A stretch of DNA of 26,901 nucleotides from a virus, in the IMG/VR virus record IMGVR_UViG_3300011114_001026, positions 1-26,901 of that record; one strand, 5' to 3'. The notes beneath the pieces were generated by a model. The model saw only the letters and a program-made list of their open reading frames with translations. It was not told the origin of the DNA and made no database searches. The stretch's first letter is position 1, and each line of letters starts with the position of its first letter. The position numbers were made by a program, and so were the translations under genes. Shown in pieces: positions 5,859 through 26,649 of this stretch.

Positions 5859-7850
5859 ATGGGCAGCTATGAAGCAGGAAATTACTCGCTCGGTTACGTA
5901 GATCCAGCTGATGTCGACAATAAAAATCTAAAGCAGATGAAGGATTGGTTTTATCAATCGAATTATACAGGAAATTCTGCTGCTTGGCTCCAGGGAGCCA
6001 TAGATAAGCGGTTTAAAGTAGGCGATCAAGCTTTAAATTCATCCCTTTATGGCTCTGGATATAATCAAGCACAGAAATTCTTCTTTAATCTCATTCGAAG
6101 ACAGATCAATATGATTGTCGGATTTCAGAGAAGAAATCGAAAATCTACTGTCACAATACCACTCCATGATCAAGATGATCCTTTGTCTGACGATTATAAT
6201 ACCGTTTTGAAATGGTGTGATAATCGAGACGGATTTCAAGAGTATTTTAGCCAAGCTTTTGAAGGCTCCTGTGACACAGGGATGACTCTTCTTCATTTAT
6301 ATCCAGATTTTACTTTTGATCCGATTTCAGGCGATCTATTTACCGATTGTGTGTCATACAATAATTTTTTAATTGATCAATATTTTCGTAAGCAAGATTT
6401 GAGTGACTGTAATGGGATTTGGAGAAGACGTTGGGTAAGTAAAGAAGGGGCTAAGCAAATGCTTCCCGGATATGCGACAGAAATCGATAAGATGCGTCCA
6501 GGAGGAATGAAAGACGGAAGATTTCCTCTTCAAGCCGAACTAAATAATGTGGCTACGAGCAATCTCTTTACTTACGATGAATTTTATTACAGAACCTCAA
6601 GATCAGCCACTTTGATTATTGATCCATACACTGGGGAAGCTGTTGAATGGGATCAGGATGAAGACGATCCAAAAGATATGATGAAGAGAACTTTAGAGCA
6701 GCAACCTTGGCTTAAAGTTAAAAAAACTCAGGTTCCAACAGTTAAGCTTGTATTAAGTTTAGGTGATAAAATCGTTTATCATGGACAGAACATGTTAGGA
6801 ATCGACGATTATCCATTTGTTCCTTCCATCTGTTATTATGAGCCCGACATTCAAAGTTATGGCTGGAGAGTGCAAGGAGTCATTCGAAATCTTAGAGATG
6901 CTCAGTTTCTTTATAATATGCGAAAAGTGATTGAACTTCAGATCTTGCAAAGTTCTGTTAATGCAGGATGGATTTATCCAGTTGATGCGGTCACAGATGT
7001 GAAAGCATTTAGACAAGCTTCAGGTGGAGAAGGATATCTTATTCCTTTAAAGGCCGGTCATCTCCCTGGAGAAATTCAAAGGATTGAGCCTGTGCCGATC
7101 CCTCAATCGCTCATTGAATTATCACATGCTCTTTCTGAGGATATTTCTAAAATCTCTGGTGTTAATGAAGAGTTACTAGGTTCAGCAACTGATGATAAAA
7201 GTGGAATTTTATCAATGTTAAGACAAGGTGCAGGTTTAACGACTCTTCAAACGATCTTTGATAAATCAGATTATACACAAAGATTATTCGGAAAGATTCG
7301 CCTTCAAGCTATTCGTAAGAATTTTAGCAAAGGAAAGATCCGTAATATTCTTGGGCATGATGCGGATCCCCGATTTTTTACATCACATTCTCAAAAATAT
7401 GGAATGGCATTGGAAGAGGGGAATTATTCATCAACTCAAAGACAAACAGAACTTCAGCAGCTTCTACATTTCAAAGAACTTGGCATGGGAATTGCAGATA
7501 AATCGATCATTCGAGCCGCTATAATCACTGATAAGCGTCAAGTCATCGAAGACATGGAAGAGCAGAATCAACAGCAAGCTCAAGCCCAGCAAGCTCAATC
7601 CCAACAGCAAGAGAAATTAGACAATTCTAAAGTAATGGGTACATACGCAAAAGCAAGGAGTGATCTTGCTAGAGAGAAAGAATTGATGGCCTCTGCACAA
7701 GAAAAACTTGCAAAAATCTCTGAAATTGAAGCTAACGCAGAAAGCAAAACTATGGAATCTGATCTTAATTTGATCAAGACACAGATGCAGTTAGAAGATA
7801 TGCAATTTAATCAAATGCGCTCGTTCTCCGGAGCGGGACAACAACAATAA
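5859..7850 (+). CDS. Portal protein, P22 type
   Basis: A 663-residue protein, the length expected of P22 gp1-like portals, forming the dodecameric ring through which DNA enters and leaves the capsid. Typical elements are the N-terminal FFFNLIRRQINMIVGFQRRN region (about 74-93), an Asp-rich DQDDPLSDDY segment, the mixed alpha/beta clip region with YYEPDIQSYGWRVQGVIRNLRDAQ (about 328-351), and the long-helix segment SGVNEELLGSATDDKSGI (about 433-450), characteristic of this family. From about 567 it becomes a Gln/Ala-rich coiled coil (the barrel region of P22 portals). It follows the divergent promoter region with an AAGG ribosome-binding site. It is followed by two tiny genes, then a long unknown gene and the scaffold. 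Confidence 0.9.
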   Translation: MGSYEAGNYSLGYVDPADVDNKNLKQMKDWFYQSNYTGNSAAWLQGAIDKRFKVGDQALNSSLYGSGYNQAQKFFFNLIRRQINMIVGFQRRNRKSTVTIPLHDQDDPLSDDYNTVLKWCDNRDGFQEYFSQAFEGSCDTGMTLLHLYPDFTFDPISGDLFTDCVSYNNFLIDQYFRKQDLSDCNGIWRRRWVSKEGAKQMLPGYATEIDKMRPGGMKDGRFPLQAELNNVATSNLFTYDEFYYRTSRSATLIIDPYTGEAVEWDQDEDDPKDMMKRTLEQQPWLKVKKTQVPTVKLVLSLGDKIVYHGQNMLGIDDYPFVPSICYYEPDIQSYGWRVQGVIRNLRDAQFLYNMRKVIELQILQSSVNAGWIYPVDAVTDVKAFRQASGGEGYLIPLKAGHLPGEIQRIEPVPIPQSLIELSHALSEDISKISGVNEELLGSATDDKSGILSMLRQGAGLTTLQTIFDKSDYTQRLFGKIRLQAIRKNFSKGKIRNILGHDADPRFFTSHSQKYGMALEEGNYSSTQRQTELQQLLHFKELGMGIADKSIIRAAIITDKRQVIEDMEEQNQQQAQAQQAQSQQQEKLDNSKVMGTYAKARSDLAREKELMASAQEKLAKISEIEANAESKTMESDLNLIKTQMQLEDMQFNQMRSFSGAGQQQ

Positions 7851-12613: not shown

Positions 12614-13042
12614 ATGACAAAACACATCGTACAATGTACACCAACAGGTGAACAGCACGGATTAATCAATGTATTATCAAATTCCGTTCCTTTCGATGAC
12701 TTTAAAAATATAGATCCAAAAATTAAATCAGAATGCGAAAAGCAAAAGAAAGAAGACGCAAAGCTTGTGAAAGTAAAATATCATAATGCTCGAGGAAAAC
12801 ATGAGCGCCTTTCAAAGGCATATTGCAGATGGGCAGGAGATCCTATTCAACAATTTCATTTGGTTCCGGGATATACCTATGAAGTTCCATTAGGTTTTAT
12901 TAAGGAAGTGAATCAAATAAAAATGCCCCAAAGAAGCGGATTAATGACTGTTGACGGAAAAGATATTCTTAAAGACGGATCTCCATTGTCTCAAGACTCT
13001 GCTGGTGAACAAATTCACTTTTTATATGTAGATAATTTTTGA
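12614..13042 (+). CDS. Hypothetical head-region protein, 142 residues
   Basis: A strong AGAGGA site precedes the ATG. The first half is charged and helical (DPKIKSECEKQKKEDAKL), the second forms strands (PGYTYEVPLGFIKEVNQIKM, then GEQIHFLYVDNF). It contains Cys and His but no metal motif. Small proteins here in P22- and N4-like phages are often head-completion or decoration components. The family is not recognised. Confidence 0.7.
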   Translation: MTKHIVQCTPTGEQHGLINVLSNSVPFDDFKNIDPKIKSECEKQKKEDAKLVKVKYHNARGKHERLSKAYCRWAGDPIQQFHLVPGYTYEVPLGFIKEVNQIKMPQRSGLMTVDGKDILKDGSPLSQDSAGEQIHFLYVDNF

Positions 13043-17086: not shown

Positions 17087-17553
17087 TGACTTCACCAGAT
17101 AGCGCAATTTTTGAAAGTTACGTTCCTGTATATAACACAGTACCAGAAGATTGGGAGAAAGCAAGACCTATGCTTGTCGAAGCTCTTAAGATGATTTCTA
17201 ATGCGGTAAATATTCGTCAAATCGGATGGCTTTTAGATGAAGAATATCTAAATGGACAATCTTTTATTCCTGGCGTGATAAATACCGATCAATATCGATC
17301 TGTATTGATGAAAGTGGTCAATATGACTCCATTGATACCAGGATTGAATAGTACATCACATGGAATCACTGTAGATGCAAATTTTACTTTAATGAATCTA
17401 TATGTGAGCGTTACCAATCCTGGGACTCCAATAGCAGCAACGATTACTGGAGATCCTGCAATACTGAATATAAATTCTACACATATAAATGTGACTACCG
17501 CAGGTGCATGGGCTAAAGCATACGCATTTGTCACCTACATACAGGAGTTATAA
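17086..17553 (+). CDS. Tail-associated protein, 155 residues
   Basis: The TAATG overlap with the fibre tip gene suggests coupling. The N-terminal half is helical (VPEDWEKARPMLVEALKMIS, followed by an RQIGWLLDEEYLNGQSF segment), the C-terminal half is a beta sandwich-like stretch (GITVDANFTLMNLYVSVTNP). Small proteins of this form stand beside fibres in several podovirus-like genomes and may attach them to the hub. The family name is not certain. Confidence 0.65.
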   Translation: MTSPDSAIFESYVPVYNTVPEDWEKARPMLVEALKMISNAVNIRQIGWLLDEEYLNGQSFIPGVINTDQYRSVLMKVVNMTPLIPGLNSTSHGITVDANFTLMNLYVSVTNPGTPIAATITGDPAILNINSTHINVTTAGAWAKAYAFVTYIQEL

Positions 17554-17554
17554 A

Positions 17555-18262
17555 ATGCCGGGATTTTTTAAAAGTATAGGAGATTTTTTTGGAGGAACTC
17601 CTGAAATAAGAGAAAATGTTTCAACTCTTCGACCTGAACAAGAGAAATTATATCAACAATTGATTCAATCTACAAGGAATCGAGGAGCAGGAGGAGCATT
17701 TGGAAGTGCAGCAGATTATTATCGAAATCTTTTGAGTGATGAAAATGCGGACATGGACGCATTTTCAATGCCTGAAATGCGTCGTTTTAATGAGGATATT
17801 ATTCCAGGTCTTTCCGAGCAATTTGCAGGGATGGGAGCCGGAGGACTGTCAAGTTCCGGATTTCGTAATGCTGCAGTAAGTGCAGGTACAGATCTTAGTG
17901 AAAGATTGGGTGCTTTACGGGCTCAATTGAGACAAAGCGCTGCAGGAGGATTGGCAAATATCGGGCAACAAGGATTGCAACCATATAGTCAAAATATGGT
18001 CACTCAGGAAGGATCTCCAGGATTTTTATCATCTGTTGCACCCGCAATCGGCACAGGTTTAGGTTTTGCATTGGGAGGTCCTGTAGGAGCGTCAATAGGA
18101 TCAGCTGGTGGAGGTTTATTCGGGAATAGAGGTCCTTCCGCGTCTACTCAACCCGGAATGAGTCAAAACCCAAATATGGTCGGAAGAAATAGCGGTCCCT
18201 ATGGAAACAATGGATTCAGTAGTCAATTGCCAAACTTTAATCCAAGTATGAGGTCTTACTGA
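17555..18262 (+). CDS. Probable DNA-ejection protein 1, Gly-rich
   Basis: AGGAG precedes the ATG at 17555; a longer reading from 17504 lies inside the previous gene. The 235-residue product starts MPGFFKSIGDFFGG, has a helical middle with GGAFGSAADYYRNLLSDENAD, and a Gly/Ala-rich segment (about 167-195, GTGLGFALGGPVGASIGSAG) able to insert in membranes, then an Asn/Gly/Ser-rich tail. P22-type phages carry three such proteins (gp7, gp20, gp16) after the tail genes, which leave the virion to build a channel. Assigned by order and composition. Confidence 0.65.
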   Translation: MPGFFKSIGDFFGGTPEIRENVSTLRPEQEKLYQQLIQSTRNRGAGGAFGSAADYYRNLLSDENADMDAFSMPEMRRFNEDIIPGLSEQFAGMGAGGLSSSGFRNAAVSAGTDLSERLGALRAQLRQSAAGGLANIGQQGLQPYSQNMVTQEGSPGFLSSVAPAIGTGLGFALGGPVGASIGSAGGGLFGNRGPSASTQPGMSQNPNMVGRNSGPYGNNGFSSQLPNFNPSMRSY

Positions 18263-19614: not shown

Positions 19615-20323
19615 TTTAATGAAAAGACTCACACCATTATTAGATGAAAATTTACCTGAAGAGATTGCAATGAAAGCAATCAATAAGGTAAGTCCTCAAA
19701 TAGGAAAAATGCTCATTAAAGGAACTTCTCAAGGATTGACTTTAGCCTCAGGTTTAAATTTTTTAAGAAGTCAGTTGAATAAAAAAGAATTTCAACCTTC
19801 CGATAAAAATTTAAGACCAGATGAAAAGGCAGCAGAAAGACAAATTTCTCGATCTCAGGACATTTCCGAATTCGGTAAAAATGCAGCAATTACAGGAGCG
19901 GGCATAGCTGCATCTTCAGCATTACCGGGAATGTTAGGGGTGGTAGCATCAGGATTATTGGGTTCCGGGCAACAACCGTCATTACAAGAAGAAAAAACAA
20001 AAGATCCTTTTGAAGCAATCTCATCATATTCACCTGAATTATCTCAATTTCTAAAAGATCATATTCAAAATGGGTTGACTCCGGAACAAGCGGCAGCATT
20101 GGCAAAAATTCCAGGAAAGCATCAAAAAGTAGTCCAAAAAATAGAAAAAGAATCTGGAGAAAACTTCGTAGATTTTTTTACTAGAATTTTGGGAAACACT
20201 CGAGAAAAGTCAGGAAATCCCACCGCTCTAGAACAACCCGTATCTGGTCAAAATCAAACAGGATCAGGGAGTCAATTGCTGATGAATATATTGCAAAAAC
20301 TTAATCAAACGAGGGGAGGATGA
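19544..20323 (+). CDS. Probable DNA-ejection protein 3, with membrane-active segment
   Basis: The start at 19544 is chosen because AAGGA sits at 19535-19539; ATG 19523 has no such site and ATG 19619 would lose well-formed sequence (FLPGQILDTFHLQGDQAQVI). The 259-residue product has helices, a hydrophobic stretch (about 113-142, AAITGAGIAASSALPGMLGVV and following residues), and a helical middle (PEQAAALAKIPGKHQKVVQK), then a Ser/Gly/Asn-rich tail. The 71-base out-of-frame overlap with the previous gene is long for this genome and could hide a frameshift joining the two. Stop and next ATG overlap in ATGA. Confidence 0.65.
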   Translation: MASFLPGQILDTFHLQGDQAQVINLMKRLTPLLDENLPEEIAMKAINKVSPQIGKMLIKGTSQGLTLASGLNFLRSQLNKKEFQPSDKNLRPDEKAAERQISRSQDISEFGKNAAITGAGIAASSALPGMLGVVASGLLGSGQQPSLQEEKTKDPFEAISSYSPELSQFLKDHIQNGLTPEQAAALAKIPGKHQKVVQKIEKESGENFVDFFTRILGNTREKSGNPTALEQPVSGQNQTGSGSQLLMNILQKLNQTRGG

Positions 20324-20997
20324 ATCCTGAAGAAGAACTTGAAGCTTTAGAAAGTCTAATCGATCAGATTTTGAAAGGTCTTCAAGACACTCTTCAATCC
20401 GGAGAGACTTTATCCGATGAATTTCAAGGAATGATCGCACAAGAATTGGATAAAACTCTTCAAAGGATCGATTTTCTTAAAAAAGAAATTTCAAATATAG
20501 GAACCGCAGATCAATTACATCCTGAAGTTCTTTCTGAAGAAACAAAGTTGTTATGGATATTAAGTGGATCTAACCCTGAGGCATTCGTTAAATATTTACA
20601 GACCTATCCAGGAAAAAGTTTTCAGCAATTATTACGAAATCCAACCCTTCTTCAACAGACAATCGAACAATTACAATCAGATAAATCCATTGGACAACTT
20701 CCGAATCGACAAATTGATGGTATTCAAAAGTCTGATTTACAATCGAGTAATGTATATGGGGCTAATTACGATCCTAAATCAAGAAAAATGTTAGTGCGTT
20801 TTCAGGAAGGGCAGATTTACGAATATGACGGAATACCTCCATATATTTTCAAGGCTTTCAGACATGGAGCAGCACCTGCAAAAACAAAAGGTAAAAACAG
20901 ATATGGGCAATGGTGGGTAGGAAAAAATCCATCTCTTGGTGCAGCTCTCAATCAATATGTGAAGAAAGCAAATTATAATTATCGAAGAGTGAAATAA
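20320..20997 (+). CDS. KTSC-domain protein with helical N-terminus
   Basis: Residues about 142-218 match the KTSC domain: SSNVYGANYDPKSRKMLVRF, QIYEYDGIPPYIFKAF, and WWVGKNPSLGAALNQYVK. This domain, found in phage and bacterial proteins, is thought to be a small nucleic-acid- or protein-binding unit; its biochemistry is not settled. The first 140 residues are acidic and helical (EELEALESLIDQILKGLQDT) and lack a known domain, so the chain looks like a helical virion-type domain fused to KTSC. It ends the run of ejection-type genes and overlaps the previous stop by ATGA. Confidence 0.88.
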   Translation: MNPEEELEALESLIDQILKGLQDTLQSGETLSDEFQGMIAQELDKTLQRIDFLKKEISNIGTADQLHPEVLSEETKLLWILSGSNPEAFVKYLQTYPGKSFQQLLRNPTLLQQTIEQLQSDKSIGQLPNRQIDGIQKSDLQSSNVYGANYDPKSRKMLVRFQEGQIYEYDGIPPYIFKAFRHGAAPAKTKGKNRYGQWWVGKNPSLGAALNQYVKKANYNYRRVK

Positions 20998-21052: not shown

Positions 21053-21718
21053 ATGACAGTATGTCTAGGATCAATGGGGAATCCCCCATTTGCAACAGGA
21101 ATAGACCTTACAGTATTCCCACAGTTCATTAATGCTAATAGAGCTCCAACATCACAGGATTTGTATAATCCGGGAACTCGATGGTTAGATCAATCAGTAT
21201 CTCCAGCAATAATATATGAAACTATTGGTAGTGGTGTTTGGAAGACTGGAGCTGCAGGTCAAGCGATCACTACAGCTGCTGGTATTACACGTTATGCGAC
21301 AACTGCAGAAGTTTTGGCTGGAACAGGAACAAACAATGCAGCATTAGCAGCAGATGTGTTCACATTAGCTCAAAGTATTGTGGTAGGTGCAGTTCCTCAA
21401 GCTACAACGGTCATTTCAGGTATCGGACAACTTGCAACAGATGCTGAAGCAGTTGCTGGGACTGCTTCTACAGGAACTCTTGCATTATTGGTCACTCCAT
21501 CTAATTTAACCCCTGTATTTGCTGCTCCTCCTGCAATCGGAGGAACAACACGTGCAGCTGCTCTATTTACAACGTTGGGGGCAAATGGATTGATCACTGG
21601 AACTGCAAGTATGACAATTTCCACTGGTGCTACAGCATTAAACCTAGGAACAGATTCGGCAGATGGAGCAGTAAATTTGGGGACTGTAGCTTCTACAGGA
21701 AGAGTAGTAACAGTATGA
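21053..21718 (+). CDS. Repetitive tail fibre, N-terminal part, ended by in-frame TGA
   Basis: AGGAG lies before the ATG. The N-terminal 70 residues look like a virion-attachment segment (SQDLYNPGTRWLDQSVSPAI). Residues about 75-150 carry two phage-fibre repeats (GITRYATTAEVLAGTGT and GIGQLATDAEAVAGTAS). The shaft then starts (TGATALNLGTDSADGAVNLG). A TGA at 21716-21718 stops it after 221 residues. The next codons in the same frame continue the shaft (NATGTSSLVLHSG), and the TGA stands where the repeat TIGNATG has glycine (GGA). It is therefore part of one 821-residue fibre gene interrupted by a single-base nonsense change, a read-through site or a sequence error. Confidence 0.85.
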   Translation: MTVCLGSMGNPPFATGIDLTVFPQFINANRAPTSQDLYNPGTRWLDQSVSPAIIYETIGSGVWKTGAAGQAITTAAGITRYATTAEVLAGTGTNNAALAADVFTLAQSIVVGAVPQATTVISGIGQLATDAEAVAGTASTGTLALLVTPSNLTPVFAAPPAIGGTTRAAALFTTLGANGLITGTASMTISTGATALNLGTDSADGAVNLGTVASTGRVVTV

Positions 21719-21739
21719 AATGCTACAGGAACAAGTTCT

Positions 21740-23518
21740 TTGGTACTTCATTCTGGAACAGGCGCTATCGATATTGGAGTTTCTATAGCGAAAACTATCA
21801 CAATCGGAAATGCAACCGGAGCTACAGCACTACAATTGACATCAGGGTCTGGAGGAATTACATTAACTCCTACAAATGCAACATTTGCGTTGAATACGGG
21901 TACAGGTGCTCTTAATATAGGAACTGATGCTGCAGCAAAAACTATCACAATCGGTAATAGCACAGGAGCGACAGGTGTAGTCATCAATTCCGGTACTGCA
22001 GGAATTCAAATCGGCACTAATGCAATTGCTCAAACAGTCACTATCGGCAATCAGACTGGGGCTAGTGCAGTAGTTATTGATTCAGGTTCAGGAGCGATCA
22101 CTATCGGGACTGCAATAGCAAAAGTCATTACGATGGGGAATGTGACCGGAGCTACAGGAATTGCACAATTAGTCGGAACAGGAAATTTTTCTTTAGATGG
22201 TGTGACAAATTCTACATATACAGTTGGAGCAAGTACCACAACAGGAACAATTACTATTGGCGGTACCGCACAAACAGGAGATATTGTTTTAGGTAGGTCT
22301 TCAGGAACAAATGCAATAAAAATTGGAAATGGTGCAGGTGCTACCACATTAAGCTTATGCGCAGTTCAAGTTGCAGGAGCCATTAATATGGGTACTGCAA
22401 TGACAACAGGAACCATCACAGTAGGTGGAACTGGAGCTCAAACAGGAACAATTGCAATTGCACCAGGAACTGGAGCTCAGACTGTACAGATCGCAAGTTC
22501 TACAGGTGGAAAAACTGTACAAATTGCAAATGGAGCTGGAGCAAATATTGTCACTATCGGATCAGTAACAGGTGCTTCATCTCTTGATTTAAAAGCAGGA
22601 TCAGGTAATTTTACTTTAAATGGAGACCCTGCAACTACATATACAGTTGGAGCAAGTACCACGACAGGAACTATTACACTTGGAGGTACTGCACAGACAG
22701 GAACGATTACTTTAGGTAGTTCTTCTGGAACAAATATCGTTGCAATCGGACAAGGAACAGGAGCAACCACAGTCAATGTTGCCACAGGAGCAGGTAGTGC
22801 AAAAGCTGTTAATATATCTACAGGTGCAGTTGCAAATGTCACGACAATAGGAACAGTTTCAGGAGCTTCTAGTCTTTCTTTATTAGTGGGAACAGGAAAT
22901 TTTTCTTTAGATGGAGCTGCAACTTCAGCATATACTTTTGCACCTTCGACTACTTCCGGAACAATAAATATCGGAGGAACAGGTGCAAATACAGGTGTTG
23001 CTACATTATTTGGAGGCACAGGCGCACAAACGATAAATGTTGCCAATAACACCGGAATTAAAACGATTAATATCGCTGGTGATTCAGCAACATCAGCAAA
23101 TATCATCCGAATCGGAACAGGTGCCGGAGCTCAAACATTGACCTGTGGCTCAACAAATACCACTAGCACAACCACTATTCAAGCGGGATCAGGAAATGTT
23201 AATGTTTCAGGATCACATTTAGCAATTACTTCAGCTGCAAAAACTCTTATCGTTAACGGAGGAGCAGTAACCGATTTCATCGGAACAGGTGTATTGACCG
23301 CAGGAACACAAACAATCGCAAATACAAATATTGCAACAGGTGATGTAATTATTATTACTCGTACAGCAGTTAATGCATCTACGACATTAGGAGAATTTAC
23401 ATACACAATAAGTAACGCAACCAGCTTTACAGTGACAAGCGTAATACTTGGAACTCCTGGATCAACACAAACAGGCGACGTAAGTTCATACGCATATTTC
23501 ATCGTAAGGCCATCTTAA
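21740..23518 (+). CDS. Repetitive tail fibre, shaft and tip, after the in-frame TGA
   Basis: Same frame as the fibre N-terminus; the open frame resumes at 21719. If translated on its own it would start at TTG 21740, with AGGA at 21727-21730 nine bases before it. The 592 residues are Gly/Thr/Ala/Ser-rich with about ten copies of a TIGN-TGAT-like unit, each two short strands, as in a beta-helical trimeric shaft. Larger units (FSLDG-...-TYTVGASTTTGTITIGG-AQTG) recur 141 codons apart. The last 100 residues change composition (GDVIIITRTAVNASTTLGEF) and form a likely tip that ends IVRPS. Probably binds the host surface. Confidence 0.8.
   Translation: MVLHSGTGAIDIGVSIAKTITIGNATGATALQLTSGSGGITLTPTNATFALNTGTGALNIGTDAAAKTITIGNSTGATGVVINSGTAGIQIGTNAIAQTVTIGNQTGASAVVIDSGSGAITIGTAIAKVITMGNVTGATGIAQLVGTGNFSLDGVTNSTYTVGASTTTGTITIGGTAQTGDIVLGRSSGTNAIKIGNGAGATTLSLCAVQVAGAINMGTAMTTGTITVGGTGAQTGTIAIAPGTGAQTVQIASSTGGKTVQIANGAGANIVTIGSVTGASSLDLKAGSGNFTLNGDPATTYTVGASTTTGTITLGGTAQTGTITLGSSSGTNIVAIGQGTGATTVNVATGAGSAKAVNISTGAVANVTTIGTVSGASSLSLLVGTGNFSLDGAATSAYTFAPSTTSGTINIGGTGANTGVATLFGGTGAQTINVANNTGIKTINIAGDSATSANIIRIGTGAGAQTLTCGSTNTTSTTTIQAGSGNVNVSGSHLAITSAAKTLIVNGGAVTDFIGTGVLTAGTQTIANTNIATGDVIIITRTAVNASTTLGEFTYTISNATSFTVTSVILGTPGSTQTGDVSSYAYFIVRPS
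22213..22990 (+). repeat. Long in-frame direct repeats in the fibre shaft
   Basis: A segment beginning TACATATACAGTTGGAGC at 22213 recurs almost unchanged at 22636 (offset 423 bases, 141 codons), with the similarity running on for over 100 bases through TGGAACAAAT and the A/C-rich end. A third, weaker copy starts near 22926 (TATACTTTTGCACCTTCG). Shorter units with the ACTATC-GGAAAT core are spread over about 21640-23100. Confidence 0.85.
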
Positions 23519-23882: not shown

Positions 23883-24223
23883 CAGAAGAATTAATGAGCG
23901 TTCAATGCGTTCCAAAGTCTGAATTTAACCCTGCTTCGTTAACAGGTTCATATCAACCACTGAATGGATCAGGGTTTTCTGATCCAGTAAAAGTTTTGAA
24001 ATTGTATAACGGAAGCACAACGGTTTCTATAGATATCAGTTTAGACGGTGTGACCGCTCATGATTTTATTCCTCCCATGGGGACTCTTATCGTGGATTTT
24101 CAGTCTAATCATGCAAATTCTGCAAGTTTTGGAACAGGAACTCTAAATGTAAGAAAAAATCAAATTCTTTATGGAAAGACTGCCTCTAATCCATCATATC
24201 TTCAAATTATAGGATATTTTTAA
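23879..24223 (+). CDS. Small virion-type beta protein, 114 residues
   Basis: The ATG at 23879 is preferred over 23873 because it makes the usual ATGA overlap and lies nine bases after AAGGGA. The chain is beta-rich ([20 protein letters not shown], then an [12 protein letters not shown] segment) and ends YLQIIGYF. It lacks a signal peptide. It lies just before fibre-base genes, so a fibre connector or capping role is plausible. The next gene starts in TAATG overlap. Confidence 0.65.
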
Positions 24224-24711
24224 TGTCACAATTTTTCCAAGGGGTTACTGCTGGGATTCTTCCTCCTGTAGTCCCCACCAGTTTTTTGACAGATGATGGA
24301 AATTCTGCGATTCCTGCTGCAAATGTGATTAATGTCTATACTCCTGGAAATGGAACTTCTGGAATACAAACCACATCTTCCGGAAATACAATTACGATCA
24401 CACTTAATGAACTTGCTTCGAATTATGTTAATGTCACTGCTGCAATGAGTCCTTACACTGTGACTGAAAGCGATTATTACATATCATGCGATTCAACTTT
24501 GGGAACTATCATTATCAATCTTCCAGATGCTCCAACTGAAAATCGTCAATTCATTATTAAAGATCGCACAGGACAAGCCTCAGTCAATACAATTACAGTA
24601 AAAAGTTTAACCTTAGCTTCTACAGTGGATCTATCTCCTTCTTACATGTTTACGGACAGCTTTGAATCACTTGAACTTTTATATCATTCATCTAATTACG
24701 AATCATTTTAG
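24223..24711 (+). CDS. Tail fibre base-type protein, 162 residues
   Basis: The N-terminus ([21 protein letters not shown]) is of the kind that joins fibres to the virion. Residues about 78-128 match the beta domain common at the start of phage fibres: [20 protein letters not shown], then [20 protein letters not shown]. It ends soon after this domain, so it looks like a free-standing base on which the following large fibre could sit. TAATG overlap with the gene before; six bases to the next. Confidence 0.75.
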
Positions 24712-24717
24712 GAGATT

Positions 24718-26649
24718 ATGGCAAACGTCGGAACGGCAGCAGCCGGAAAAACACTTGTTGGAGCAGGTACAGGAGTCAGTCCTACTTTTGTTGATATCGG
24801 AACAAATAGCGGATTGACAAATCATGCAGTTGTGTTAGCTCAAGGAAATAATGCTTTTACAAATACTTCTGCAGCATTTAACGGACAAGTCCTAATAGGA
24901 TCTACGGGTTCAAATCCGAATTTTGCAACTATAACTTCTACCGATGGGTCTATTACATTTTCTTCTGGTGCAAATTCTCTGAATATGGCAGTGACAAGCC
25001 CTTTAACTTCTTTAGTAGGTCAAGATGGTATTAGTGTCAGTACAAGTTTAGGAATTACAACAGTCACTCCTAGGGGAGCAGGAACACGAAATATGTTCTT
25101 GGGTCAAAGTGCAGGAAACTTAACTTTATCCGGAAGTTCAAATGTTGGATATGGCTATCGCTCTGAAGTGGCATTAACTACTGGATCAAATAATGTGGCT
25201 ATGGGGACAGACACTTTATCTGCATGTACAACAGGAGAAAACAATGTTGCAATAGGATATCAGGCATTAAAAGGTCACTCCAATAGCATCAACAATACTG
25301 CCGTGGGATATGATGCCATGGAGCTTGCGTCAGTTGGATCTCTTAATGTATGCATCGGCTTGTATTCTGGTCGTTATTGCAGCACCAGTAATAATGTCGG
25401 AGTGGGCTATGGAGCAATCGCAGGAAATTCTTCTACTGGAGGTGGTAATTGCGTCGGAGTGGGGTTTAATGCATTAATCTCAAATAACGGAACAGAAAAT
25501 ACTGGTGTAGGTTATAACGCCCTAGCAAGGATAAGCACAGGAGCTTATCATGTATGTTTAGGTAGATATGCAGGATACAACTATACAGGAGCTGAATCAA
25601 GTAATATCTGTTTAGGAAATCAAGGGACCACTGGGGATTCAAATACAATAAGACTGGGTTCTCCAGGATCGGGACTGGCAGAACAAGATAAATGTTTCAT
25701 TGCAGGTATCACTGGTGTAACAGCTGTAGGTGAACCAGTAGCTGTTGGATCTACAGGGAAAATGAGTGCATTGGGATTTGGAACATCAGGTAATTTATTT
25801 GTATCAAATGGTGCGGGAGTAAGCCCTACTTGGCTTGCCACTGCAAATAATAGCATTCTTTCTACAAATGGATCGGGAATTCCATCTTTAGGAACCAGTT
25901 TATCTAATGATTACACCTTTACTTCATCTACATCAGGCGCTAATCGAGTTGTTACTATTTCCCATACCAGTAATACCGCGTCCTCTGGTGCTTCAGAAAA
26001 TATTTCTGTAGCGGGGACTTCTGGTGGAGATGCTTGGACTCAATATACAGTAGGTACATCAAGAAGTTACTCTATAGGGCCGGATACTAGCGATTCTTCG
26101 ATTTTAAAAATCAATACAGATTCTGACGGAACTGTAGACCCATCAAGTGGAACGAATTTATGGAAAATGACCTCAAGTGGTGTAGTAAATATGCCACTTC
26201 AACCTTCATTTTTAGCGAGCTTAAGTGCAACTCAAAGTAATGTAACTGGAGATGCAACAGTATACCAAGTAGTTTATGATACGGAAATCACGGATCAGGG
26301 GAGTAATTACAATAATGGAACTGGAACTTTTACTGCTCCTGTATCAGGAAATTATTTATTGATTCATTCCGCAAATTTTTCTGATGCTACAGCTAGTTTT
26401 ACAATTGCACAAGTTAGAATTGTTACAACTGCACGAACTTTTATACAATATGCATCTGATCTAGGAACGGTTTATGAAAAATATACCGGCACTAATACAG
26501 TGAATGCATTTTGTTCCATTATTGCTCCCATGGCAGCCAATGACACAGCAACATTTAGCGTGTTAGCAGCTGGTTCTACTAAAACTACAGATGTACTTTT
26601 AACCTCAACTTGTTCCACTTCTTATTGTTCTGGATATTTACTTTGTTAG
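24718..26649 (+). CDS. Large fibre with YadA-head-like repeats and C1q-like tip
   Basis: AGGAGA precedes the ATG. The 643-residue protein has (1) an N-terminal Gly/Thr/Ser shaft (1-120) with linker units such as GAGTGVSPTFVDIG; (2) residues about 125-302 with YadA/Hep_Hag-like head repeats (SNVGYG, NNVAMGTDTL, NNVAIGYQAL, NNTAVGYDAM and others), which form a trimeric beta roll; (3) a second shaft (about 350-490); and (4) about 495-643, a C1q/TNF-like jelly roll with YDTEITDQGSNYNNGTGTFT, APVSGNYLL and a Cys-containing end (CSTSYCSGYLLC). Such trimers bind receptors. Both domain assignments are by pattern. Confidence 0.85.
   Translation: MANVGTAAAGKTLVGAGTGVSPTFVDIGTNSGLTNHAVVLAQGNNAFTNTSAAFNGQVLIGSTGSNPNFATITSTDGSITFSSGANSLNMAVTSPLTSLVGQDGISVSTSLGITTVTPRGAGTRNMFLGQSAGNLTLSGSSNVGYGYRSEVALTTGSNNVAMGTDTLSACTTGENNVAIGYQALKGHSNSINNTAVGYDAMELASVGSLNVCIGLYSGRYCSTSNNVGVGYGAIAGNSSTGGGNCVGVGFNALISNNGTENTGVGYNALARISTGAYHVCLGRYAGYNYTGAESSNICLGNQGTTGDSNTIRLGSPGSGLAEQDKCFIAGITGVTAVGEPVAVGSTGKMSALGFGTSGNLFVSNGAGVSPTWLATANNSILSTNGSGIPSLGTSLSNDYTFTSSTSGANRVVTISHTSNTASSGASENISVAGTSGGDAWTQYTVGTSRSYSIGPDTSDSSILKINTDSDGTVDPSSGTNLWKMTSSGVVNMPLQPSFLASLSATQSNVTGDATVYQVVYDTEITDQGSNYNNGTGTFTAPVSGNYLLIHSANFSDATASFTIAQVRIVTTARTFIQYASDLGTVYEKYTGTNTVNAFCSIIAPMAANDTATFSVLAAGSTKTTDVLLTSTCSTSYCSGYLLC

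Follow-up and report, generated by a model that had tools for sequence, protein, structure and literature searches.

We identified the tail-fibre gene of a metagenomic virus, at positions 21053-23518 of the 26,901-base virus record analysed here (the window), as one gene cut by a single in-frame TGA codon. Very probably, one base of a podovirus fibre gene that is otherwise intact has changed in isolation and without any regulatory role: the TGA would be a nonsense allele of recent origin, or else an error of one base in the metagenomic contig. On the single contig analysed, the odds between a real allele and a sequencing or assembly error are about even.

The interrupted gene and its surroundings

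Among the products of the window are a large terminase and a portal of the P22 type (PF16510, E=1.3e-68), from which the virus is probably a podovirus. Portal relatives are found in 53 metagenomic viral contigs at 62-78% identity, so the group is well represented; portals of sequenced phages match weakly, at about 19-25% identity among the matches listed. A single genome hit was obtained, to a contig of a Nitrospiraceae MAG with 62% portal identity, which may be a binned virus and gives a hint of the host only. The parts of the fibre gene are as follows.

21053-23518, + strand: tail-fibre gene, whole frame from ATG start to TAA, 821 codons counting the TGA
21053-21718, + strand: 5′ part with the N-terminal and collar region and the start of the shaft; ORF of 221 aa with an ATG start, ended by the premature TGA
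21716-21718, + strand: premature in-frame TGA at a repeat position, with Gly there in 54 of 73 relatives
21719-23518, + strand: remainder of the gene, with 599 open codons up to the TAA, encoding the beta-repeat shaft and the distal domain
21740-21742, + strand: TTG, proposed reinitiation start, judged a chance match
23279-23506, + strand: distal beta-sandwich domain, with a confident model and a Foldseek match to 9k4a

The N-terminal part matches PHROG 910, tail collar fiber protein (E=6.6e-6). ORF and frame checks bore out the first-pass annotation on the coordinates, the common register of 21053-21718 and 21719-23518, and the TGA at 21716-21718, which is the sole break between them. The motif at the break reads VVTV-TGA-NATGTSS, and the window's other shaft repeats carry glycine at the same position, in TIGNATG (GGA), TIGNSTG (GGT), TIGNQTG (GGC) and TMGNVTG (GGG); together with the residue found in the relatives, this confirms the earlier proposal that the TGA replaces a repeat glycine.

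Directly upstream of the fibre, the gene at 20320-20997 ends in a KTSC domain (PF13619, E=2.5e-11; 20740-20865) and is conserved beside the fibre in several relatives. Downstream lies a second large glycine-rich fibre-like gene (24718-26649, 643 aa); towards its C-terminal end it has a C1q-like domain that scores just above the curated cut-off (Pfam PF00386, E=1.1e-5). The gene before it (24223-24711) ends in a TAG and shares its frame with the next gene, which starts at 24718. This TAG sits in TAGGAGA, a ribosome-binding-site-like stretch (24709-24718), and the closest homologues of 24223-24711 end at about equal length; this looks like an ordinary gene junction.

Comparison with related fibre genes

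Relatives were gathered by scanning viral contigs with three queries: the N-terminal part (19 viral relatives), the C-terminal part and a profile built on the conserved collar segment. The scans yielded 81 complete relatives from metagenomic viruses, a few of them near duplicates, and 7 more cut by contig ends. Neither the N-terminal nor the C-terminal part of the fibre found a match in isolate phages. The complete relatives mostly measure 500-900 aa. In the length comparison most relatives have 740-900 aa, so the fibre, described as giant in the first-pass annotation, is at about 820 residues of normal size for its family. As expected if the TGA is a nonsense allele, the homologues are intact: each of the 81 complete genes reads as one open frame without an internal stop, nor was any stop seen in the 7 cut genes. 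This absence does not come from search bias alone, since the N-terminal and collar searches would have caught truncated genes as well. The first-pass annotation had named homologues free of the TGA, together with virions lacking the long form, as what would speak for simple mutation, and the sequence half of that argument now stands, as no relative keeps the TGA.

In the best alignment of each relative, the residue at the TGA site is glycine in 54 of 73, encoded by GGT (31), GGA (15), GGC (6) or GGG (2). In the reverse comparison of all relatives' ORFs against the window, 59 relatives align straight across 21716, and no frame switches were found in the window. Many intact homologues contradict the stop at 21716, which holds for no other stop in a real gene frame of this record, and these three results together place the break beyond chance. 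The homologues extend a median of 593 residues past the TGA. An exact search of viral contigs, with any base allowed at the variable position, returned no second copy across the site.

The other stops raised by the reverse comparison were set aside: they fall in shadow frames within genes, mark natural gene ends or come from single weak matches. The TAA at 7848, at the portal end, was considered as a second premature stop and rejected: relatives' portals end just 11-51 residues later and only 2 of 44 align past it, which marks it as an ordinary variable C-terminus.

Related fibres share a common collar and repeat shaft and differ in their distal domains, with differing C-termini in relatives L006, L009, L011, L017, L020, L021, L147, L155, L159, L167 and L172. 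This pattern suggests, at the level of sequence, that the receptor-binding end is swapped among related fibres.

Decoding at the TGA

The virus might read TGA as a sense codon, as glycine (code 25) or tryptophan (code 4), and code 25 would indeed supply the residue expected at the site. However, TGA terminates 8 other called ORFs in the window, and those with homologues stop where the homologues stop: the end-point difference has a median of 0 both for the terminase (over 41 homologues) and for 12614-13042 (over 28), and 17504-18262 stops where its best matches stop. The reverse comparison across the window supported no other TGA at a sense position, and no tRNA gene was found in the window. 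Reassignment under code 4 or 25 is contradicted by the end-points of the terminase and 12614-13042 and is scarcely credible; judged from these gene ends, the virus uses TGA as an ordinary stop, in keeping with the earlier statement that it is not recoded throughout. Phage stop-codon reassignment (e.g. PMC7886860, PMC11210395) likewise involves in-frame stops that break structural genes, but in this virus the effect is confined to a single codon of a single gene, and the other TGA codons end genes normally.

A second reading is leaky read-through of UGA-A, giving mostly the 221-aa stub and a few percent of a full-length product of about 821 aa. The UGA is followed by A, and the 599 downstream codons are perfectly open and conserved; such a lack of decay is what functional read-through would predict too. 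The stop context of the Q-beta coat/A1 gene is also UGA-A. There, an in-frame UGA within the longer open frame of a structural gene is read through about 1 time in 15 (PMC8067240), and the short form is itself the working coat protein; in this virus the short form is a stub without the distal domain, which as the main product would have no evident use, and the stop occurs in no relative. UGA-A is a leaky kind of context, and it is ordinary for the TGA stops of this genome: 5 of the 8 other ORFs that end in TGA have it. No stimulatory hairpin or element of the selenocysteine type was found downstream, folding of the first 60 and 120 bases, counted from the stop, being no better than for shuffles (z-scores 0.24 and -0.77). 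Considered as a conserved pair, the stop and the downstream frame part company: the frame is conserved and the stop is not. We regard read-through as unlikely.

Reinitiation at TTG 21740, 22 bases past the TGA, would yield a separate 592-aa C-terminal fibre piece. The AGGA with a nine-base spacer upstream of this TTG is present as first described. It carries little weight, since AGGA occurs 38 times in the fibre gene against 13 expected from base composition (about threefold), an excess that arises because Thr-Gly is often written ACA-GGA, and since cores resembling a Shine-Dalgarno sequence precede 23 of the 109 NTG triplets in the gene. No relative is split at this site, and the piece would be missing the N-terminal part, through which the fibre presumably attaches to the virion. 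Reinitiation is thus very improbable, though less so than reassignment. Among the explanations first offered, nonsense mutation or sequence error is favoured by the 81 relatives without the stop; the host-range device of two fibre lengths made by read-through or reinitiation finds no support in the relatives, the folding, the context, the AGGA or the stub.

Age of the stop and its predicted consequences for the fibre

The preferred reading, an isolated single-base change, would consist of a G-to-T substitution turning GGA into TGA in a shaft repeat. This is the commonest of the single-base routes to a stop in the fibre gene (79 of 246), so that a TGA of this very kind is the likeliest outcome of a random hit. 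The part after the stop is as well conserved as in intact relatives: the C-terminal 150 residues show 0 private changes at 28 conserved columns, and the whole post-stop part ranks 3 of 20 for fewest private changes. In a neutral-drift simulation of the 599-codon frame, the probability of no further stop was 0.62 at 1% divergence and 0.09 at 5%. The lack of decay indicates that the change is recent, or not real, or tolerated through continued translation of the frame.

The distal domain was modelled as a beta-sandwich (mean pLDDT 90.5), and its best structural matches by Foldseek are phage depolymerases and tailspikes (9k4a, E=8.7e-4, followed by 7w1c and 7eea), with modest TM-scores of 0.34-0.46 by query length. 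A PDB search with the C-terminal profile gave no sequence match, and the predicted likeness to C-terminal parts of tailspikes and depolymerases is a resemblance of fold only. The 221-residue product would lack nearly all of the shaft as well as this tailspike-like domain and would thus resemble no relative. Naturally short relatives (243-380 aa), which came from the search with the C-terminal part, keep the distal end and have lost shaft sequence instead.

If the stop is real, translation would halt after 221 residues and the virion would presumably lack the shaft and distal receptor-binding domain of this fibre; a stub-only fibre would by inference not bind the receptor. The TGA would then be a recent loss-of-function nonsense allele in a phage defective in this fibre; otherwise it would be a base error of sequencing or assembly in the metagenomic contig. 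Loss through a single lesion has precedent in laboratory phage lambda, whose stf is frameshifted according to Hendrix and Duda (1992) as cited in PMC10721106, and stf was mutated in 19 of 21 isolates selected in a biofilm-like setting (PMC2762979). As in lambda stf, a single lesion lies in an otherwise intact tail-fibre gene whose downstream frame is still readable. In lambda the lesion is a frameshift and virions were shown to be without the fibre, whereas the present lesion is a nonsense codon in a metagenomic contig.

Where an annotation lists a short fibre followed by a hypothetical protein with a TTG start, the two should be taken together as one broken gene. Beyond this, the TGA would matter little as an ordinary nonsense allele or a sequence error. 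It is improbable, a shade more so than read-through taken generally, that a leaky UGA has lately arisen by evolution in the fibre shaft of a tailed podovirus, with a few percent of chains made full length; were this true, fibre number per virion and adsorption would be tuned, and read-through, if shown, would mean that a tailed phage controls the dose of its tail fibre at translation.
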